Below, piece after piece: positions 6,596 through 24,141 of a DNA stretch of 39,717 nucleotides (the first letter of the stretch is position 1; each line of letters begins with the position of its first letter). Position numbers and translations under genes: made by a program. Below the pieces are notes generated by a model, which saw nothing but the letters and a program-made list of their open reading frames with translations, was not told where the DNA came from and ran no database searches. This stretch comes from Bacteroidota bacterium (lineage in GTDB: Bacteria > Bacteroidota > Bacteroidia > Chitinophagales > Saprospiraceae). The stretch spans positions 1-39,717 of the forward strand of contig JAKQJD010000573.1 in the NCBI GenBank assembly GCA_029561355.1. Direction: 5' to 3'.

Positions 6596-7666
6596 ATGGC
6601 AGACGAAAAAGAAAATAAACTTAAAACCCTCCAGTCTACAATAGACCGCCTCGACAAAACGTACGGCAAAGGTACGATTATGCGTCTGGGCGACAAGCAG
6701 GCCGTTGAAGTCGAGGTAATTCCTACCGGCTCCCTTGGTCTGGATATCGCTCTTGGCTGTTACGGGCTTCCCAAAGGCCGTATTATTGAAATATACGGCC
6801 CGGAATCTTCCGGTAAAACCACGCTCGCTATCCATGCGGTGGCAGAGTGCCAGAAACGCGGCGGTATCGCTGCAATCATCGACGCCGAACACGCTTTCGA
6901 CCGTTTTTATGCAGAAGCGCTGGGTGTCGATGTCAACAACCTCCTCATCAGCCAGCCCGACAACGGCGAACAGGCACTGGAAATCGCCGAAAACCTGATT
7001 CGTTCCGGCGCAGTCGACATCCTCGTGATCGACTCTGTGGCGGCACTCGTACCGCGGTCGGAGATCGAAGGTGAAATGGGCGACTCCAAAATGGGTCTCC
7101 AGGCGCGCCTGATGAGCCAGGCTATGCGTAAAATGACCGCCAACATCGGCCGTACCGGCTGCTGCTGTATTTTTATCAACCAGTTGCGTGAAAAAATCGG
7201 TGTGATGTTCGGTAACCCCGAAACCACTACCGGTGGTAACGCCCTCAAATTCTACGCTTCGGTTCGCCTCGACATTCGTAAAAGCGGCGCCGCTATCAAG
7301 GATAAAGATGGCAACCTCGTGGGCAACCAGGTAAAGGTAAAAGTGGTGAAAAATAAACTCGCGCCGCCATTCCGGATTGCGTCTTTCGATATCGTATTCG
7401 GTGAAGGCATTTCCAAAACGGGCGAGATCATCGACCTGGGCTCCGATATGGACATCGTTCAGAAAAGTGGCGCCTGGTACAGTTACAACGGCGTGAAAAT
7501 TGCGCAGGGCCGCGATGCAGCGAAAAACTTCCTGCACGACAACCCGGAAATGGCGCTGGAAATTGAACAAAAAATCAAGGAACGGGTCGCTTCCGGTTCG
7601 CTCAAACCCGCCACAGCAGCAGCCAAAGTGGCCGCGCTGGACGACGGTGAAGAAGATGATTTTTAA
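6596..7666 (+). CDS. recA: Recombinase RecA
   Basis: 356 residues from MADEKENK; an upstream in-frame ATG at 6539 would lie over the promoter. RecA forms ATP-dependent filaments on ssDNA for homologous recombination and SOS signalling. Seen: Walker [10 protein letters not shown] (68-76), the second ATP-site acid in IIDAEHAFD (94-102), Walker [13 protein letters not shown] (140-151), loop L1 [23 protein letters not shown], the conserved [21 protein letters not shown] with loop L2, and an acidic C-terminus DDGEEDDF. Length and motifs are standard. A strong terminator follows, so it is monocistronic, with recJ just beyond. Confidence 0.99.
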
Positions 7667-7685
7667 GCATCTAAATTGATAGTGC

Positions 7686-7734
7686 AAAACCCCGGATCGA
7701 AGGATTTTTCCTCCATCCGGGGTTTTGTTTTTAG
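7686..7734 (+). terminator. Intrinsic terminator of recA
   Basis: A perfect 12-bp stem (7686-7697 with 7715-7726, AAAACCCCGGAT/ATCCGGGGTTTT) followed by GTTTTTA, 20 nt after the recA stop. Confidence 0.9.
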
Positions 7735-7775
7735 CGCGGCTTATCTTCGCTCCCTGAAACACTACGAAACACGCA

Positions 7776-9479
7776 ATGAAATCCCCGCTTTGGCAGTTCT
7801 CTCCCGTCGACGTTCCACTCGTCGATCAGTTGCAGGCCGATTTAAAAATCGACCGCATTTTTTGCACGTTGCTGGCACAACGCGGAATTGACGGTCTGGA
7901 TATGGCCAAACAATTCTTTCGCCCCACATGGGAGCATCTGCACGATCCTTTTTTAATGAAAGATATGGATCTGGCTGTGCAGCGGCTCGACCAGGCCGTA
8001 AAAAGTGGAGAACGTATTCTGCTTTATGGCGATTACGATGTAGACGGTACTACCAGCGTGGCGATGATGTATCGCTTTATTTCCCGTTTTTATAAAAACC
8101 TCGATTATTACCTGCCCGACAGGGACAAGGAAGGTTATGGCGTAAGCCTGGCAGGGGTGGAATATGCCCGTGAAAACAAATGCGGACTTGTCATCGCTAT
8201 GGATTGCGGCATCAAAGCGCATGCGGCCGTTGCACTGGCCAAATCCTACGGGATCGATTTTATCATTTGCGATCACCATGTGCCGGAAGGCGGTCTTCCC
8301 GAAGCGGTAGCCAACCTCGATCCGAAGCGCACGGACTGTCCTTATCCATACAAGGAATTGAGTGGCTGCGGTATTTCCTTCAAACTCGCCCAGGCATTTG
8401 CCTTGTACCACGACATGCCAGCCGAAGAACTGAATGAATTGCTCGATCTGGTGGCGGTCAGCATTGCCTGCGATATCGTGCCCATGACCGGCGAGAACCG
8501 TGTGCTGGCACATTTGGGCCTGCAATGCCTGCACCACTCGCCCAGCATCGGACTGTGGGCGCTCATGCAACGCACCAACCGGCCTGTGCCGCTGAACATC
8601 AACGACCTGGTTTTTGCCGTAGGGCCGCTCATCAATGCTGCCGGCCGACTGGGCGATGCACGCGACGCGGTTCGTTTGATGCTTTCAGCTGACCGCCACA
8701 GCGCCCTGGATTATGCCGGAAAACTGGTGCACAAGAACAAAGAGCGTCGCACAGTCGACCACCTGATGGCCGGCGAAGCCACGGGCCGCATACTGGCGCA
8801 ACCGGGTCTGGAAACAAATAAAAGCATCGTACTCTTCAGTTCGGAATGGCACAAAGGTATTATCGGCATTGCCGCCAGCCGTATGGCCGAACGGTTTCAC
8901 CGGCCGGCCGTTATTCTGACCGAAAGCAACGGCCGCGCAGTGGGTTCCGCCCGCTCCGTGCCGGGTTTTGATTTATATGCTGCCCTGCAATCCTGCGAAG
9001 ATTTGTTTTATTCCTACGGCGGCCATGCCCACGCCGCAGGCATGCAAATGCCGCTGGAAAACGTGGATGCATTTGTCGAACGTTTCGAAAACGTGGTGCA
9101 GCAACAACTTACCGTGGAGGCGGAGCAGCCGATCCTGGAAATTTGCAGCGAGCTTCAACTGGAAGACATCACCCCGAATTTCTGGAAAATGCTCAAACGG
9201 TTCGAGCCTTTCGGACCGCACAACAGAAATCCCATCTTTTGTGCCACCAACGTAATGGATACCGGGCATAGTCGGCTACTGGACAATAACCACGTCCGGT
9301 TTTCCCTGAAAAGCCTCAACGGCAAGTCTGTTTTCGGCGGCATCGGCTTCGATCTGGGTGAAACATTTCAAGCGATCAGGGACCAGCCTTTCGACATTGC
9401 TTTCAATATTCGGGAGGAGTACTGGCGCGGGGAAAGAGGTATTTCCCTGCAAATCAAAGGCCTCCGGACAAAAAGTTGA
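7776..9479 (+). CDS. recJ: Single-stranded-DNA-specific exonuclease RecJ
   Basis: 567 residues, normal for RecJ. A 5'-3' ssDNA exonuclease of the DHH phosphoesterase family, acting in recombination and repair. Metal-binding motifs: GDYDVDGTTS (85-94), MDCG (142-145), CDHH (165-168), then LSGCGISFKLAQA. The DHHA1 part contains SEWHKGIIGIAASRMAERFHRPAVIL, GSARSVPGFDL and YGGHAHAAGM; the C-terminal OB-like domain carries EPFGPHNRNPIF. The start overlaps no other gene and lies 109 nt after recA, beyond its terminator, so it should have its own promoter (possibly TATCTTCG at 7742-7749, one mismatch to consensus). The recA-recJ neighbourhood is functionally coherent. Confidence 0.97.
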   Translation: MKSPLWQFSPVDVPLVDQLQADLKIDRIFCTLLAQRGIDGLDMAKQFFRPTWEHLHDPFLMKDMDLAVQRLDQAVKSGERILLYGDYDVDGTTSVAMMYRFISRFYKNLDYYLPDRDKEGYGVSLAGVEYARENKCGLVIAMDCGIKAHAAVALAKSYGIDFIICDHHVPEGGLPEAVANLDPKRTDCPYPYKELSGCGISFKLAQAFALYHDMPAEELNELLDLVAVSIACDIVPMTGENRVLAHLGLQCLHHSPSIGLWALMQRTNRPVPLNINDLVFAVGPLINAAGRLGDARDAVRLMLSADRHSALDYAGKLVHKNKERRTVDHLMAGEATGRILAQPGLETNKSIVLFSSEWHKGIIGIAASRMAERFHRPAVILTESNGRAVGSARSVPGFDLYAALQSCEDLFYSYGGHAHAAGMQMPLENVDAFVERFENVVQQQLTVEAEQPILEICSELQLEDITPNFWKMLKRFEPFGPHNRNPIFCATNVMDTGHSRLLDNNHVRFSLKSLNGKSVFGGIGFDLGETFQAIRDQPFDIAFNIREEYWRGERGISLQIKGLRTKS

Positions 9480-17258: not shown

Positions 17259-19817
17259 TTATTTGCTGCGCACCACCGTGTCTCCATTTATAAGGTTGCC
17301 GAAAAAGAGGGCATTGGCCAACAGGCGGTTGGTTCCGTACCAAAATGACCTGAAAGCAGGGTCGCCTGAGAATCCAATCAAGCGACCGCTGCCGATACCA
17401 CCTACTACTACGGCGGCGGCATTTTTGGTCAGCGGCAGAAATTTCGGATGGATATAACCTGCCAACAAAGGTTTTTCGGTAAAAGTGACCGGAGCGGCAT
17501 AAGAATTGGCCGGCGCTTCCGCGAAAATCGAGTCGCCCAGAAATACAGGCAGCATCGTGCGATCATAACCGTAGCACACCGGGTGCGTGAGATCGAGCAG
17601 CGCCTCAAAAATACAGCCGGGCAGGCGCCGCGCGCCGAGGTCTTCCTCCACGCCATCGTACGGGCGGCGCATGTTTTTTTCCGAGGCAGCAGTTTTAAAT
17701 TCTACTGCAAGAAGATTTTGTTTTGCCAGCCATTTGAGTGCTCCTCCTATGGCTACTACCGTTCCGCCGTTTTGAGTGAACTGGCGAATTTTATCGGGAG
17801 AAAGGCTGCCATATGTGCCGTCGGCCATCAGTATTACATTGTATTTCAACAGATTAACATCATCCAGCCGACTAATTTCCACCATTGTAACGGGTATCTG
17901 GTACCTGGTATCGAGCAAATGCCAGAGCTCGCCTGCACTTTCGGCTGCTACACCCCGACCAGTCAGCAACAGGATTTTAGGAAGCCGGACGACCATAAAA
18001 TTGTCGCTTCCCAAATCCGGCCCGCTGGAAGTAAGGCCGTTGGTTATGATAAAAACCGGCAGCAGCGACTGAATGGAATTCATTCTTTTGAGCAAGTCTT
18101 CGGGCGACAAGGATTGGCGGTCTGTGGAAATTACCAGGCTGCCTGCCCTGAAAGATCGTCCTTCCGCTTCAAAAGGTTTGGTAGCAACTTTGACCCGAAT
18201 ATTGTCGGCCAGAAGTTTGTACAAGACTTGCGGCACCTCATATCCAACGGCATCGATCGCATAGGCATAGGCTGGTTGCGAAATTTGCGACAGGCCGTAA
18301 CGGGACGTAAGTGCAATGCCGGAAGCAGGTGCCCAGTTTTTGGGCAGGTCGGATGCCTGCACCTGCGACCACTGCAAACCGAAAGCATCGGGCAGGGTCC
18401 AGGCAGAAATATCGTAAAAAATGCTGTCCTGGAAAACGGTTTGCCTGGTAAATATACCCTTGATAAGCCGGTAGTTCGGTTGGTTCAGTGGCACCCAGAA
18501 GGCATTTCCGGCCCGATACGTCTGGTCGTTTATCTTCAGGTCTTCTTTCACATTGTGCACTTCAATATGGTGCCGCATCAGTAATTGCAGAAATTCACGG
18601 GCAGGCAAATCGCGGCCGGCATCGCTGAAAACATAACCTTTGAGATGATCATGGGCGGATTCGTCCAGCGCAGTTTTGAAAAAATCGCGCTGGTATTCGT
18701 TCAATTCCACACGCATGGCCGATACGGCCTGTAGGGTCGACAGGGACGCCAGCACCTGATTGCGGATGGAATATGGAAAAGTGAGCAGTCCGTTCTGCGT
18801 TTCCTGCGCGCTGCCCCGGCTACTGGCCTGCTCGAACAGAATACCGATGCTGCCGTTGGCATCCGGATACGTGGAGCCTTTTCCGTAATAGAAATCGTCG
18901 AAATTTTCCTGCGTGTAAAAAGGGATGTTTTTTTGAGAAAGTAACCTGGCATGAAATCCGGCGATTTTGGCGGTCAGTTCCTGGTTGCGCGCCGGCGTAA
19001 TGGGATTTACACGCGAAGGCACACCCGGCTGGAAAAAGAAAGTGGATCCGCTGCCCATTTCGTGGTGGTCGGTCAGCACATTTGGGTGCCATTCCTGAAA
19101 AATAGCTACCCTTCCTACACTTTCGGGCTGCTGGGTTACCAGCCAGTCGCGGTTAAGGTCGAACCAGTAGTGGTTATAACGGCCCCGCGGCCAGGGTTCG
19201 TTGAATTCGTCGCCTGCCGGATCGGGCGCTGATTGTTTGCTTCGGCGGCTGTTTACCCAGGAGGAAAAACGTTGCATCCCATCGGGATTGAAACACGGAT
19301 CCAGCAGAATAAGGGTATTCTGAAGCAACTGCTCTATTTCGGGCGACTGCCCGGCCGCCAGGTAATAGGCTACCAGCAAGGCGGCATTGCAACCGCTGGC
19401 TTCATTTCCATGAATGGAATAACCCATGTAATTGACCGCAGGCATGTTTATAAGGTCGAGTCCGGCGCTTTCTTTCGGATCGGTCAGTTTTTGCCTTTCC
19501 AAGCGAATGGCATCGATCCGGGCATAATTGGAAGGAGCCGTAATAGTCAGGCACAACATGGGTCGTTGCTCATGCGAGCGGCCGTATTCTTTCAAGTGAA
19601 CGCGATTGCTGGTGCGCGCGAGTTCCTTCATGTAGGCTACCAACTGGTCGTGGCTGGTATGCCATTCTCCGACCTCATAACCCAGGTATTGTGCCGGTGA
19701 GGGAACCGAGGGGTCATATGATATGCCAGGAAGGTAATATTGAAGGTCAGGTTTTTCCTGAGCGTAGGAGGTTACGAGGCTGCACAAAAGGAAGCCGAAC
19801 AAAAAATGAAATTTCAT
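17259..19817 (-). CDS. Secreted M14-family zinc metallopeptidase
   Basis: 852 residues from MKFHFLFGFLLCSLVTSYAQ (signal peptide); an ATG 12 codons earlier is rejected because it precedes the signal. The carboxypeptidase domain spans about 45-370: zinc ligands H136 and E139 in SIHGNEASG, NPDG (177-180), DLNRDW (220-225) and a later His in LTDHHEMGSGSTFFF (HH at 251-252). The remaining ~450 residues include a ThuA/glutamine-amidotransferase-like segment (KILLLTGRGVAAESAGELWHLLD, NVILMADGTYGSLSPDKIRQF, GGTVVAIGGALKWLA), common in large Bacteroidota M14 proteins. It probably trims peptides in the periplasm or outside the cell. It stands alone. The small-RNA array begins just upstream on the opposite strand. 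Confidence 0.93.
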   Translation of the reverse strand: MKFHFLFGFLLCSLVTSYAQEKPDLQYYLPGISYDPSVPSPAQYLGYEVGEWHTSHDQLVAYMKELARTSNRVHLKEYGRSHEQRPMLCLTITAPSNYARIDAIRLERQKLTDPKESAGLDLINMPAVNYMGYSIHGNEASGCNAALLVAYYLAAGQSPEIEQLLQNTLILLDPCFNPDGMQRFSSWVNSRRSKQSAPDPAGDEFNEPWPRGRYNHYWFDLNRDWLVTQQPESVGRVAIFQEWHPNVLTDHHEMGSGSTFFFQPGVPSRVNPITPARNQELTAKIAGFHARLLSQKNIPFYTQENFDDFYYGKGSTYPDANGSIGILFEQASSRGSAQETQNGLLTFPYSIRNQVLASLSTLQAVSAMRVELNEYQRDFFKTALDESAHDHLKGYVFSDAGRDLPAREFLQLLMRHHIEVHNVKEDLKINDQTYRAGNAFWVPLNQPNYRLIKGIFTRQTVFQDSIFYDISAWTLPDAFGLQWSQVQASDLPKNWAPASGIALTSRYGLSQISQPAYAYAIDAVGYEVPQVLYKLLADNIRVKVATKPFEAEGRSFRAGSLVISTDRQSLSPEDLLKRMNSIQSLLPVFIITNGLTSSGPDLGSDNFMVVRLPKILLLTGRGVAAESAGELWHLLDTRYQIPVTMVEISRLDDVNLLKYNVILMADGTYGSLSPDKIRQFTQNGGTVVAIGGALKWLAKQNLLAVEFKTAASEKNMRRPYDGVEEDLGARRLPGCIFEALLDLTHPVCYGYDRTMLPVFLGDSIFAEAPANSYAAPVTFTEKPLLAGYIHPKFLPLTKNAAAVVVGGIGSGRLIGFSGDPAFRSFWYGTNRLLANALFFGNLINGDTVVRSK

Positions 19818-20065
19818 AGGATTCGTATTTGGCGGAAAAATACACGAATCCATTCATCCTGCCATTCCGATTTATGGAACTGCCTAAGCGCACAGGCTCT
19901 GTATATGGGAAAAATCCTTTTCTACAGAAAAAAATAAAAAAAATCAGCATATTTTTCGTTAAAAAAATCAACAAAACGCCTTAATGTGGCTACTAATTAT
20001 GTCAAAAATGATTGATTTTGGGTTAAATAGATTCAAAACAGTTTACTTTCGATAAAATATACAGC

Positions 20066-20119
20066 TCAACAAAATTGTTTTTTTGTTCTTTCGCACTGGT
20101 TTTCTATGCTGCACTTTTG
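20066..20119 (+). promoter_or_regulatory. Promoter of small-RNA copy 1
   Basis: TCAACAAA (20066-20073), 10 nt, TGTTCTTT (20084-20091), 18 nt, TGCACTTTTG (20110-20119). The last element fits the -7 form nAnnTTTG. A second TCAACAAA lies 98 nt upstream at 19968-19975, after seven A residues. Confidence 0.7.
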
Positions 20120-20123
20120 TATC

Positions 20124-20248
20124 ATCAAAGAAAGCAAACGGCGGTGCGGCAAGAGAAAGCGGTGGTCTTTGATACACAGATTTGAAACTTTTCATGAGAT
20201 TATATACGGGAAACCGACCCGGCGCAAACGAGCGCCGGGTTTTTTTTT
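20124..20248 (+). ncRNA. Small RNA, array copy 1
   Basis: Predicted 125-nt transcript. The 5' stem ATCAAAGA/TCTTTGAT (20124-20131 with 20166-20173) encloses a 34-nt purine-rich loop ending AAGCGGTGG. After a 10-nt linker comes the 70-nt domain shared by all copies (20184-20253): an unpaired-looking GAAACTTTTCATGAG, a mini-hairpin CGG-GAAA-CCG (20207-20216), and a terminator with an 8-bp stem CCCGGCGC/GCGCCGGG (20218-20225 with 20232-20239) and nine T. Promoter and terminator flank it tightly, which is why I call it a gene. Function and family unknown. Confidence 0.7.
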
Positions 20249-20252
20249 GCCC

Positions 20253-20285
20253 CTACAAATGTTGGGCTTCTCCGAAGCCGGTGGT
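20253..20285. repeat. 33-nt hairpin unit 1
   Basis: CTACAAATGTT followed by GGGCTTCTCCGAAGCC and GGTGGT. The core forms a 6-bp stem GGCTTC/GAAGCC with loop TCC. It starts directly after the terminator of small-RNA copy 1. Confidence 0.85.
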
Positions 20286-20301
20286 TATTGTTTATGATGG
20301 T

Positions 20302-20334
20302 CTACAAATGTTGGGCTTCTCCGAAGCCGGTGGT
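20302..20334. repeat. 33-nt hairpin unit 2
   Basis: Identical to unit 1, 16 nt downstream of it, with an unrelated spacer. Confidence 0.85.
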
Positions 20335-20569
20335 TCTCATTTGTGGATATTTTGGAAGCAGGCACGCTTTTTTAGGAAATAAAAAAGCCTCAAAAAGCTT
20401 CGGGGAAAAAAAATGAAAAAAAATTATGATTTTTTTCAAGTCAAAAAAATCAACAAATAGAATCACAATCGTATATGTATTTGTAGCGATTGTATGCGGA
20501 TACATGTAATTTTCATTATATTTTTAAAAAACACGCTATTTGAGTACCGTTAATACAGGCAATAACAAA

Positions 20570-20623
20570 TCAACAAATTCGTTTTTATGTTCTTTGCATA
20601 TGGTATGAATGTTTGCACTTTTG
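20570..20623 (+). promoter_or_regulatory. Promoter of small-RNA copy 2
   Basis: TCAACAAA (20570-20577), 10 nt, TGTTCTTT (20588-20595), 18 nt, TGCACTTTTG (20614-20623). An upstream TCAACAAA lies at 20450-20457, again after seven A. Confidence 0.7.
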
Positions 20624-20627
20624 TACT

Positions 20628-20753
20628 GTCAATAAAAGAAAGCGGCGGCGATAGATGAGGAAGCGGTAATTATTGACCCACAGTTTTTGAAACTTTTCAT
20701 GAGATTATATACGGGAAACCGACCCGGCGCAAACGAGCGCCGGGTTTTTTTTT
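20628..20753 (+). ncRNA. Small RNA, array copy 2
   Basis: Predicted 126-nt transcript. The 5' stem is GTCAATAA/TTATTGAC (20628-20635 with 20670-20677), which differs from copy 1 at three positions on each arm yet keeps every pair. The loop is again 34 nt. The shared 70-nt domain (20689-20758) is identical to copy 1. Unlike the others, no complete 33-nt hairpin unit follows. Confidence 0.7.
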
Positions 20754-20991
20754 GCCCCTATGACAAGGGCATCACGGGTGGCATTTTGAGCAGACGGCAA
20801 CCTGTTTTCATTTTGGATCCACTCGTTTTTATAAAATTTGAATTTTTTTTGATTAAAATAAATATTTTTTAAGGCGTATTTTTTAAACAAATACCCTGAA
20901 AAAAGAACAGAAGGTGGGATTAAACAATTCTTTTTCGGCCCTATTCGACTAAAAATACGTATTAAGATAATCTAGAGGCATAGATTGCTTT

Positions 20992-21045
20992 TCAACAAAA
21001 GAGTATTAATGTTCTTTTTTTGCCATGCAACCTGCTGCACTTTTG
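20992..21045 (+). promoter_or_regulatory. Promoter of small-RNA copy 3
   Basis: TCAACAAA (20992-20999), 10 nt, TGTTCTTT (21010-21017), 18 nt, TGCACTTTTG (21036-21045). No second upstream TCAACAAA was found for this copy. Confidence 0.65.
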
Positions 21046-21049
21046 TATC

Positions 21050-21176
21050 ATCAATAACAAACAAGGGCACACGAACAGAACAAGCGAGCATTTTTCAGCC
21101 CTCACAGATTCGAAACTTTTCATGAGATTATATACGGGAAACCGACCCGGCGCAAACGAGCGCCGGGTTTTTTTTT
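21050..21176 (+). ncRNA. Small RNA, array copy 3 (divergent 5' domain)
   Basis: Predicted 127-nt transcript beginning ATCAATAA, but the pairing arm expected 34 nt later is absent. A different 5-bp stem, AGGGC/GCCCT (21064-21068 with 21098-21102), ends 9 nt before the shared domain, almost where the stem ends in other copies. The 70-nt domain (21112-21181) is identical to the rest. This copy may have a different partner or be decaying. Confidence 0.6.
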
Positions 21177-21190
21177 GCCCCTACAAATGG

Positions 21191-21365
21191 CTACAAATGT
21201 TGGGCTTCTCCGAAGCCGGTGGTAACTACTGGTTTTTCTACAAATGTTGGGCTTCTCCGAAGCCGGTGGTAACTACTGGTTTTTCTACAAATGTTGGGCT
21301 TCTCCGAAGCCGGCGGTAACTACTGGTTTTTTCTACAAATGTTGGGCTTCTCCGAAGCCGGTGGT
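21191..21365. repeat. Tandem array of four 33-nt hairpin units (units 3-6)
   Basis: Units at 21191-21223, 21238-21270, 21285-21317 and 21333-21365, separated by 14-15 nt spacers of AACTACTGGTTTTT type, for a period of 47-48 bp. Unit 5 has one substitution (GGCGGT for GGTGGT). A fragment, CTACAAATGG, precedes unit 3. It is too short and too regular in its spacers to be a CRISPR. Confidence 0.9.
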
Positions 21366-21737
21366 CCATTGCCTTTGTTCTTGCCGTTAACTACGACCCC
21401 GGATATTTTCTGATTCACCCGCGCCTTTAAAATCTTTGCGCTCAAGTCGTCACCTCGCTCCGTATTCGGGTAGGCAGAGATTGTATTGGAAGGGCATTCG
21501 GATTGTTTAGCCATCCCGACCGGCCAGACTTATTACGCCCTGCTTCCAAAAATTTCAAAAAAATCACGTGTCAGAATTTTTTTTTCAATAAAAAGCACTT
21601 GTTTTTTATATAAAAAAATCAACAAAACAGCGTGTTAGAAGATGAAATTATTGCGAAAAAGCGCCCAGTAACTATTTAAATAAAATATTTAGCGTTAAAA
21701 AGGCGGCTTTTCAGTAGTTCTGTCGAAAACCTTTCGC

Positions 21738-21791
21738 TCAACAAAATTGTTTTTTTGTTCTTTGCTACTGGTATTCCATGCTGCACTTTTG
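21738..21791 (+). promoter_or_regulatory. Promoter of small-RNA copy 4
   Basis: TCAACAAA (21738-21745), 10 nt, TGTTCTTT (21756-21763), 18 nt, TGCACTTTTG (21782-21791). An upstream TCAACAAA follows seven A residues at 21619-21626. Confidence 0.7.
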
Positions 21792-21795
21792 TATC

Positions 21796-21920
21796 ATCAA
21801 AGAAAGCGAACGGCGGAGCAGCAAGAGAAAGCGGTGATCTTTGATACACAGATTCGAAACTTTTCATGAGATTATATACGGGAAACCGACCCGGCGCAAA
21901 CGAGCGCCGGGTTTTTTTTT
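21796..21920 (+). ncRNA. Small RNA, array copy 4
   Basis: Predicted 125-nt transcript and closest relative of copy 1: the same 5' stem ATCAAAGA/TCTTTGAT (21796-21803 with 21838-21845), and a 34-nt loop differing at only a few positions. The shared 70-nt domain is at 21856-21925. It points toward the 3' end of recQ, 83 nt beyond its terminator. Confidence 0.7.
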
Positions 21921-21924
21921 GCCC

Positions 21925-21951
21925 CTACAAATGTTGGGCTTCTCCGAAGCC
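21925..21951. repeat. 33-nt hairpin unit 7 (truncated)
   Basis: Matches the first 27 nt of the unit and lacks the final GGTGGT. It directly follows the terminator of small-RNA copy 4. Confidence 0.8.
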
Positions 21952-22002
21952 ATTTCGCATTATTATTCAAAATGCTGGTCTGTTGCGAAACACCAAACAC
22001 GC

Positions 22003-24141
22003 TTATTTGCGCTGCTTCCGAAAATCTGCGATGGAAAACTGAATCTGGGAATAGGAAAATTTATGCTCGAAGTGTTCGAAAATTTCCTTCAACTGGTATG
22101 GTTCGCTGAAAAGGGCCAGAGCGCCCTGAATCAGATCCATTTGTTCGGGCTGCACCCACTTGCGGATATCCAGCAGTTCGCCGCGCTCGTACATGATGGC
22201 CAGGTGGCCGGTAACCGTGACCGGGCTCATGCTGCGTTTTTCCGCAATCGCTTCCACGGAATTCCCCTGTTTGAATAATTCCCAGGTCTGTAGGTAACTG
22301 CTGCCCGTCATCGCTGCGCCTTCGCCTGATTTTTCGAGCACAAAACTGCGGATTGCATGCATGAACGCATCTCCATACAAATGTAACTTGCGTTCGCCTA
22401 CACCTGATATCCGCATCATATCGGCATCCGTCAGCGGGCGTTTTTCCGACATTTCTGCCAGGGTGGCGTCGCTGAAAATGAGGTACGGCGGCATACCCTG
22501 CTGTTGGGCGATGCTGCGGCGGAGCGTGACGAGGGCTTCGAACAATTCGTCGCGGAATACCTGCGACTTGTTCTTTTCCACAAATTTCACGTGTTTCTCT
22601 TCTGCGGCGGCCTTTACCTGCGGAAGCGCCAGCGTCACTTTTTTATTTTCAAACAGGACTTTTTTGCCGGCCTCGGTGACGCGCAGGCGGCTGAAGTCGT
22701 CGTAGGCGATTTCGACAAGCCCCTGGTGCAACATTTGGGAAATGAGAAACATCCAGTTGTCGGGGCTGTATTCCTTGCCTGCGCCCCAGGTTTTGATCTG
22801 GTCGTACTGGTGTTCGAGAATTTCCTGGCGTCGGCTGCCGCGCAAAATGTCTATGAGCAGTTGCATGCCCACTTTTTCTTGTACCCTTACGATGGCCGAC
22901 AAGGCTTTTTGAGCAGTTACCGTGCCGTCGAAGCGGCGTGGCGGATTCTGGCACACATCGCAGTTGCCGCATTTACCGTCATAGGGCTCGCCGAAATAAT
23001 TGAGCACGGTTTGCCGCCTGCAAACGGGCGCTTCCGCAAACTGGAACACCCGCTCCAGTTTGGCGATCTTGAGTTCCTTTTGTTCTGTGCTTCCCTCACT
23101 TTTTTCAAACATTTCGCGGTATGCCTGCACGTCGCTGTAACTAAAAAACAACAAGGCGGTAGAAGGCAGTCCATCGCGGCCTGCGCGGCCGATTTCCTGG
23201 TAGTAAGATTCCAGGTTGCGCGGCAGGTTGTAATGGATCACAAAACGCACGTTGCTTTTATCGATGCCCATACCGAAAGCGATGGTAGCGCAGATAATGG
23301 GCGTTTTGTCGTTGATAAAATCTTCCTGTACCTGGCTGCGCTGTTTGGCAGGCACTTCTGCGTGGTAAAATCCCGTTTTGAAACCCTTGGCGTTGAGTTT
23401 ATCTGACAGTTCTTCACAACTTTTCCTTGAAAGGCAGTAAATGATGCCTGATTGCCTGGGGTATAGTTTCAGAAATTCGATGATCTGTTCGAGCCGCCGC
23501 TGCCCCGGGCGTACCTGCAGGCTGATATTGGGCCGGTCGAAAGAAGAAATAAAAACCTGCGGATTCCGGAGGTTCAACTGCGTAGTGATGTCCTTGCGCG
23601 TGAGTTTATCGGCCGTAGCCGTCAGCGCCAGGAGCGGTACTTTTGGGAACTGGTCTTTCAAAAAACGCAACTGCGTGTACTCCGGTCTGAAATCATGCCC
23701 CCAGGCAGAAATACAATGCGCCTCATCGATGGCGAACAGGCTGATTTTCAGGCGTTTTAATAAAGGCTGGAAGTTTTGCGACACCAGTTTTTCCGGACTT
23801 ACATACAGTAGTTTGATATAGCCTGCCAGCAGAGCGTCTTCCACATTTCTCGTTTGTTCCGCATCGAGCGAACTATTCAGAAATGCAGCGGGCACACCGT
23901 TGGCGCTCAGCCCTTCCACCTGGTCTTTCATGAGCGCGATCAGCGGGCTCAGCACAATGGCAGTACCGTCGAGCGTAATGGCAGGCACCTGGTAACAAAC
24001 GCTTTTGCCACCGCCGGTAGGCATCAGCACCAGCGTATCGCGCCCTTCGTACACGGCGCTGATAATTTCGGCCTGTAGAGGGCGAAAGGCATCGTAACCG
24101 AAATACTGTTTGAGTGCGGACCGGGCTTTTGTGAGCGACAT
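22003..24141 (-). CDS. recQ: ATP-dependent DNA helicase RecQ
   Basis: 712 residues. A 3'-5' helicase in recombination and fork repair. Seen in order: motif 0 FGYDAFRPLQAEII, Walker A PTGGGKS (41-47), DEAH (139-142) within FAIDEAHCISAWGHDFRPEY, ALTATAD, motif VI YQEIGRAGRDGLPS, the zinc-binding CRRQTVLNYFGE...CGNCDVC, a winged helix, and an HRDC domain (FEALVTLRRSIAQQQGMPPYLIFSDATL). A further C-terminal HTH (SVEAIAEKRSMSPVTVTGHLAIMYERGE) is common in Bacteroidota RecQ. It starts 7 nt after the TPR gene, so the two are probably co-transcribed. Its 3' end faces the small-RNA array. Confidence 0.97.
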   Translation of the reverse strand: MSLTKARSALKQYFGYDAFRPLQAEIISAVYEGRDTLVLMPTGGGKSVCYQVPAITLDGTAIVLSPLIALMKDQVEGLSANGVPAAFLNSSLDAEQTRNVEDALLAGYIKLLYVSPEKLVSQNFQPLLKRLKISLFAIDEAHCISAWGHDFRPEYTQLRFLKDQFPKVPLLALTATADKLTRKDITTQLNLRNPQVFISSFDRPNISLQVRPGQRRLEQIIEFLKLYPRQSGIIYCLSRKSCEELSDKLNAKGFKTGFYHAEVPAKQRSQVQEDFINDKTPIICATIAFGMGIDKSNVRFVIHYNLPRNLESYYQEIGRAGRDGLPSTALLFFSYSDVQAYREMFEKSEGSTEQKELKIAKLERVFQFAEAPVCRRQTVLNYFGEPYDGKCGNCDVCQNPPRRFDGTVTAQKALSAIVRVQEKVGMQLLIDILRGSRRQEILEHQYDQIKTWGAGKEYSPDNWMFLISQMLHQGLVEIAYDDFSRLRVTEAGKKVLFENKKVTLALPQVKAAAEEKHVKFVEKNKSQVFRDELFEALVTLRRSIAQQQGMPPYLIFSDATLAEMSEKRPLTDADMMRISGVGERKLHLYGDAFMHAIRSFVLEKSGEGAAMTGSSYLQTWELFKQGNSVEAIAEKRSMSPVTVTGHLAIMYERGELLDIRKWVQPEQMDLIQGALALFSEPYQLKEIFEHFEHKFSYSQIQFSIADFRKQRK

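Follow-up and report, generated by a model that had tools for sequence, protein, structure and literature searches.

A 2.1-kb interval without a convincing ORF lies between two minus-strand genes assigned with Pfam, an M14 carboxypeptidase-like gene (17259 to 19853) and recQ (22003 to 24141), in the 39,717-nt stretch of Saprospiraceae DNA analyzed here (the window). The interval carries four copies of one 70-nt sequence, raising the question of what these copies encode and on what their products act. A reading made from the sequence alone had proposed an unknown multicopy regulatory RNA with the layout of tandem sibling sRNAs, and genome comparison and covariation support that proposal. Our main reading, to which we assign a probability of roughly three in four, is that the copies mark four sibling genes for trans-acting antisense sRNAs, members of a family peculiar to one genus, the core of which pairs at the start codons of surface-protein mRNAs. 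Sequence comparison shows the existence, structure and distribution of this family and its complementarity to start codons. sRNA regulons of Bacteroidota are known mainly from Bacteroides, and to our knowledge the regulation of very large secreted Bacteroidota surface proteins is largely open.

Four Paralogous Units between an M14 Peptidase Gene and recQ

The array adjoins the start of the M14 gene and the end of recQ and consists of four plus-strand units of ∼125 to 130 nt each. The identical 70-nt 3′ block lies at 20184 to 20253, 20689 to 20758, 21112 to 21181 and 21856 to 21925, the same four positions found in the sequence-only reading, and at E ≤ 0.001 nothing else in the host genome matches it. 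That reading had called the region of the four units gene-free, which is nearly so: the longest listed ORF wholly within it has 99 aa, but a 145-aa TTG ORF (21841 to 22278) begins there and extends antisense into recQ. The spacers, described as unrelated, are so only in some of their parts; promoters and 5′ hairpins are homologous between units, and likeness reaches 95% across 216 nt of units 1 and 4.

As had been proposed, every unit has its own putative promoter and terminator. A common promoter-like block (TCAACAAA ... GTTCTTT ... TGCACTTTTG) spans the ∼54 nt before each predicted start; the four-unit alignment places it at 20066 to 20119 for unit 1 (TCAACAAA at 20066, GTTCTTT, and CACTTTTG at 20112 to 20119), 20570 to 20623 for unit 2, 20992 to 21045 for unit 3 and 21738 to 21791 for unit 4, all on the plus strand. 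The predicted unit 1 sRNA (20120 to 20248, plus strand; start about 20120 to 20126; model score 141.1 bits) contains a hairpin, P1, formed by 20124 to 20130 and 20167 to 20173, a core at 20189 to 20203, and a terminator at 20216 to 20241 followed by a T run. The other predicted sRNAs, also on the plus strand, are unit 2 (20624 to 20753; core 20694 to 20708; 137.9 bits), unit 3 (21046 to 21176; core 21117 to 21131; 108.4 bits) and unit 4 (21792 to 21920; core 21861 to 21875; 141.9 bits). Unit 3 has the most divergent 5′ part, and the consensus P1 is absent from its predicted fold. A 10-pair hairpin and then a T run are present in every window copy; terminator-like sites in the window number 5 against 2.9 expected in shuffles, which alone is weak evidence. 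In predicted folding, the four exceed shuffled sequences in stability by 2.3 to 3.5 standard deviations. A σ70 promoter scan was uninformative (four sites, all on the minus strand, against 5.2 expected), a tRNA scan of the window found none, and searches of plasmid and phage collections gave short matches only, with E of 0.5 or more.

A Structured RNA Family Found in a Single Saprospiraceae Genus

Of the 42 genomes of the genus, 41 have a match to the 70-nt domain at E ≤ 0.001, some matches being partial; the exception, G024, is 82% complete and gave a best E of 0.16. At least two matches were present in 35 genomes and a single match in six. Forty regions were retrieved, and the loci examined contain 99 distinct copies from 35 genomes, of which 91 scored 40 bits or more and eight scored below 40 bits. 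In 12 of the 40 regions recQ adjoins the array tail to tail. The promoter motif TTTG[TA] lies 45 to 95 nt upstream of the domain in 94 of the 99 copies, and all but six of these 94 entered an 88-row alignment (the omitted rows are G006:C37:12869, G014:C4:223014, three of G019:C116 and the promoter-bearing unit of an array in G012). The alignment was made with MAFFT, is sequence-based rather than structure-fitted, and had some row starts trimmed by hand where the promoter regular expression matched too far upstream. Promoters across the genus share the consensus TCAACAAA, followed by TTTTTTGTYCTTTG, a gap of about 20 nt and TGCACTTTTG; TCAACAAA keeps a single fixed position in 58 of 87 copies.

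The 88 copies define a common architecture. The predicted RNA starts with TATC or TACT, followed by the 5′ hairpin P1 (for example, ATCAATG/CATTGAT), which has a purine-rich loop that often reads CGGCGG...AAGCGG, and by a linker. The core, TTTTCATGAGATTAT, lies 3′ of the linker, about 70 nt into the transcript and before the terminator, and within it TTTCATGAGA is invariant across all aligned copies; 3′ of the core are a small CGG-GAAA-CCG hairpin and then a terminator with a conserved loop. Standard pairs fill 95.0% of pair cells (99.6% in the terminator helix), double changes occur at 12 of 19 pairs, the 5′ hairpin and the terminator covary, and the covariation score was reached by 0 of 500 shuffles, the structure having been chosen on the same alignment. 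The core is predicted to be only moderately open, with a mean unpaired probability of 0.55, no higher than that of the first 20 nt, and a value of at least 0.5 in 61 of 88 copies. On the strength of the covariation and of conservation in all but one of the 42 genomes, sequence analysis indicates that the four units are members of a real structured RNA family, beyond chance.

The copies could instead be no RNA genes at all, but either an element linked to repeats or transposons or a very small coding gene. A REP-like palindrome (CTACAAATGTTGGGCTTCTCCGAAGCC) does occur seven times among the units (window 20253 to 21951), with copies that begin directly past the terminator in three units (1, 3 and 4), and 63 times in the host genome at three or fewer mismatches, against 0 for the reversed control; and a closed ORF of at least 10 codons is found somewhere in 40 of 88 copies. 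The palindrome differs in sequence from the sRNA block, which occurs only four times in the host, in one block, with its own promoters and a covarying structure, and, given also the promoter motif in 94 of 99 copies, it does not look like a transposon end or REP element. A conserved coding gene is rejected: 2-nt indels follow the core ATG, and an in-frame stop after that ATG falls within the transcript in only 5 of 88 copies. We give almost no weight to a non-RNA origin.

The covariance-model search that had been suggested as a check, built on the 88 copies, matched 3 of 150 genomes of the family, all three of this genus, and found nothing in the other 147; among 395 genomes of the phylum it matched the host genome only, in both searches under stringent filtering, at the risk of missing weak matches. 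Genomes of named species, scanned with a pattern, gave 55 stretches, all MAG-titled and labeled Saprospiraceae, Saprospirales, Lewinellaceae, Chitinophagales, Bacteroidota or Bacteroidetes, a result that alone supports assignment at family or phylum level only. On this evidence, the RNA family appears confined to one genus of uncultured Saprospiraceae. Rfam gave no match above the gathering threshold for the window and eight related loci, and matches at a relaxed threshold were at chance level. Among bacterial sRNA families the best scores on the plus strand were those of OmrA-B (RF00079; 22.3 bits, where the cut-off is 40) and anti-hemB (RF02837; 17.3 bits, where it is 49.5); both were rejected as chance-level matches, the likeness being that of short sRNAs with a terminal hairpin. 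In the literature searched, no description of a Saprospiraceae sRNA was met, and FopS was the one close relative among the papers listed. By the Rfam and literature searches, the family is apparently undescribed.

Probable Concerted Evolution of the 3′ Module, and Variant Copies

Identity among the four 70-nt copies had been attributed to selection or gene conversion. Across 73 rows from 33 genomes, 3′ modules are 97.6% alike within genomes and 88.1% alike between them, whereas 5′ parts are 70.1% and 56.9% alike, respectively. The difference between within- and between-genome likeness of the 3′ modules suggests their concerted evolution, with exceptions in G014, G015 and G029. Besides selection, the comparison among genomes points to this process.

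Several variant copies were also observed. In one locus (L055, about 7389 to 7840; G012:C5), four 3′ modules lie about 129 nt apart, with the promoter motif at the first module only and a T run after the last hairpin only, as if a single transcript carried four cores. In another (L046:6681-6826; G008:C43), a module copy stands directly 3′ of a tRNA-like gene, to which ARAGORN gave no definite anticodon, as if the copy had been fused to the 3′ end of that gene. In G016 (L042/L043) and G008 (L044/L045), recQ and the M14 gene are about 28 to 36 kb apart with sRNA copies beside each, which we read as recombination or insertion within the array. A second sRNA subclass (L022:1159-1289, L011:1168-1297 and similar copies) has ACAAGGGAAAC in place of TATACGGGAAAC and a CACCTTTG promoter, apparently lacks TCAACAAA, and in several genomes adjoins an ordinary copy.

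The Core Is Complementary to Start Codons of Secreted Proteins

In reverse complement the core reads TAATCTC-ATG-AAAA, corresponding to UAAUCUC-AUG-AAAA at mRNA start codons. A search of the 42 genus genomes with the pattern AATCTCATGAAAAH gave 35 hits in 25 genomes, ten of them sRNA copies (nine flagged automatically and one, L199, by position). The number of non-sRNA sites is not raised genus-wide (25 against 27 for a permuted pattern); what is raised is their location. By eye, the 25 comprise eight starts of a secreted-protein family with the N terminus MKKVYEAS... (family A), four starts of a family of giant HYR proteins (family B), five other signal-peptide-like starts, five short-ORF leaders and three unexplained sites, so that 17 of 25 have signal-peptide-like N-termini. 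Of the 27 permuted-pattern hits, five begin ORFs of at least 60 aa and two have a hydrophobic N-terminus; one signal-peptide-like control ORF of 59 aa (L216) falls just below this mechanical cut-off. Scored mechanically, 18 of 26 test hits, a set that includes the sRNA copy L199, are at ORF starts compared to 5 of 27 permuted hits (p = 2.8e-4), and 15 of 26 compared to 2 of 27 have hydrophobic N-termini (p = 9.9e-5); these p values are too small, because hits within a family (eight in A, four in B) are dependent. As there is no genus-wide surplus of sites, the case for targets rests on site location and on the analysis of orthologues.

A protein search finds family A in 8 of 42 genomes, and all eight members have AATCTCATGAAAA at the start, a 13-nt match to the core. 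Family B is an ∼1,490-aa HYR protein (1,470 aa in G031), with HYR above the curated cut-off and a type IX sorting domain just under its cut-off. All 42 genomes were matched in the family B search, many matches being paralogues, and start regions were read from 39 of them, one each; G020, G022 and G030 gave weak hits only. At least 10 contiguous nucleotides are complementary to the core in 26 of these 39 starts and fewer than 10 in the other 13, compared to 0 of 599 background starts, which were the first ATGs of ORFs of at least 150 aa and include wrong starts and spurious ORFs. Together with the eight family A starts, these counts indicate complementarity beyond chance at such starts, the genus-wide number of sites not being raised. 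Exact TAATCTC precedes the ATG in 18 of 39 family B starts and in 0 of 599 background starts. The longest core complementarity averages 9.9 nt in family B, 5.2 nt in the background (n = 599) and 6.6 nt in outgroup homologues (n = 28), and 200 shuffled cores gave family B means averaging 5.16 with a maximum of 7.18. Conservation in family B is 0.64 to 0.90 over positions −7 to −1 and does not exceed 0.64 between −25 and −8, and upstream conservation ends where core complementarity ends; outgroup homologues show 0.39 to 0.50 over −7 to −1. At the family B start of the host genome (TTAATTAATCTC-ATGAGAAAAGCA), the predicted duplex has an energy of −17.4 kcal/mol.

The start motif might instead be read by a protein or serve as a ribosome-entry feature, in which case the sRNA would be a protein-binding decoy and its complementarity not its function. 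Outgroup homologues, from genera without a detected sRNA, would fit such an arrangement in that TCTC precedes the ATG in 4 of 28 and TCCC in 5 of 28 (at least 10 nt are complementary to the core in 4 of 28). As a negative control for the antisense reading, these homologues were therefore not clean; their start codons are less certain, an assigned ATG lying as much as 34 aa away from where it would be expected. Moreover, the self-complementarity of TCATGA makes a DNA-binding reader conceivable. Yet TCTC precedes 0 of 599 unselected starts of the genus (3.6 expected), the invariant core is an exact complement with which the family B footprint ends, and a decoy would be expected to bear the motif itself rather than its complement. 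We regard the decoy explanation as improbable. The outgroup start motif may reflect diverged sister-genus sRNAs beyond the reach of the model, or another role of the motif.

TCCC-ATG was also noted at starts of giant homologues in other genera (L313, L314, L321, L323 and L329, the 5 of 28 above), a possible hint of diverged cognate sRNAs; among ordinary starts of the genus, TCCC before ATG is raised (7 of 599 against 1.3 expected).

The units could also be independent regulatory RNAs with their true targets elsewhere, the start-codon matches belonging to a lesser share of the regulon. In that case the purine-rich loop conserved in the 5′ hairpin could provide a second contact; the complementarity to start codons is strong and conserved, and makes such an assignment very improbable.

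Target Sites in the Host Genome and Conserved Leaders

In the host genome, the 17-nt complement of the core has 21 non-sRNA sites at three or fewer mismatches compared to 11 control sites, and exact TAATCTCATG has 10 compared to 2. Nine of these ten exact sites are at an ORF or within 344 nt before one. Four begin long ORFs, encoding the family B protein, a proprotein P-domain protein of >1,000 aa and two others, neither of which looks secreted. Five lie 106 to 344 nt before an ORF, the downstream ORFs including those of a Big_9/cadherin-like protein and a giant secreted protein, and the tenth site fits nothing.

Six leaders align around AATC[TA]CATGAAA, and four of five that were folded have a long hairpin 3′ of the site (z of −5.3 to −7.1), followed in three of the four by a clear U stretch on inspection. 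Main partners of the sRNA might thus be short leader RNAs of giant-protein operons, acting through attenuation control or as sponges, with effects at ORF starts secondary or even activating. The common site and the strong hairpins speak for this arrangement. The fifth folded leader has a z of only −1.5, a terminator scan with loops limited to 8 nt did not report the leader hairpins, and families A and B have the site at a real start codon without the need of a leader, leading us to consider leaders unlikely as the main partners.

Conserved leaders were observed at L233:2523-2625, L290:1775-1880, L289:11745-11842 (minus strand) and L291:3498-3605, 5′ of secreted-protein genes. They consist of the target site, in some AACTGTACTCAGTT, and then a strong terminator-like hairpin, have no match in Rfam, and could be attenuators, decoy RNAs or both. 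In the host genome (contig C372), a PorP/SprF-family gene (L233:914-1864; 180 bits) lies just 5′ of such a leader and a giant target-like gene.

Proposed Mechanism and Comparison with Known Systems

In the antisense model that we favor, each unit would be read from its own Bacteroidota-type promoter as an RNA of ∼125 to 130 nt, made up of the covarying 5′ hairpin, the invariant core (UUUUCAUGAGAUUAU), a small hairpin of GNRA-like type and, at the end, a Rho-independent terminator. This core would pair with the UAAUCUC-AUG-AAAA translation start in mRNAs that encode secreted surface proteins of very large size, which have HYR, Ig-like and cadherin-like domains and are probably exported by the type IX system, and could also pair with the short leaders of some target operons. 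Pairing over the AUG would keep ribosomes off and lower production, and multiple copies per genome would raise the sRNA dose. We infer that the units are transcribed, that they pair inside the cell and that they repress instead of activate, the last from the pairing geometry and the precedent of FopS; we think that the RNA probably represses translation by covering the start codon. Weighing against the model are the genus-wide site count, which is not raised, the shorter complementarity of 13 of 39 family B starts, the outgroup homologues with similar complementarity, the two host-genome start sites of proteins without a secreted look together with the one site that fits nothing, and the moderate predicted openness of the core. 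A fuller picture, in which one multicopy sRNA with a seed over the start codon itself acts on giant surface proteins, terminator-bearing leaders with the same site serve as attenuators or sponges and the 3′ modules evolve in concert, all jointly, is tentative, and we think it more probably wrong than right in at least one part.

If right, the antisense model would provide a sequence-defined sRNA family with a seed and a short target list in an uncultured group, and would place a FopS-like layout (paralogues, start-codon pairing and surface-protein targets) in a second Bacteroidota lineage.

FopS and GibS are sRNAs of Bacteroides thetaiotaomicron, with 14 paralogous FopS RNAs and Bacteroidota-type promoters; FopS sRNAs bind beside the start codon of a SusC mRNA, blocking translation in vitro, and their targets were predicted with 5′ positions 1 to 21 (PMC11697453). 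The family described here has in common with FopS its occurrence in Bacteroidota, its multicopy paralogues behind Bacteroidota-type promoters, putative here, and pairing, here predicted, at start codons of surface- or outer-membrane-protein mRNAs, and it probably works like FopS. The two differ in the seed, which in FopS is at 5′ positions 1 to 21 and here is in the 3′ module beside the terminator and includes the complement of the AUG, and in the targets, SusC-like transporters for FopS and predicted giant HYR/Ig-like secreted proteins here. The likeness is one of layout and predicted action, set against the FopS description, and the covariance model, under strict filters, matched the host genome only among 395 phylum genomes. 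We do not claim homology to FopS, nor, with the different seed position, membership of that family. LhrC1-7 of Listeria are multicopy sibling sRNAs (PMC11697453), likewise with several near-identical genes per genome and a common active segment, a likeness in layout only; set beside LhrC1-7, the Saprospiraceae family has in addition the suggested concerted evolution of its 3′ module.
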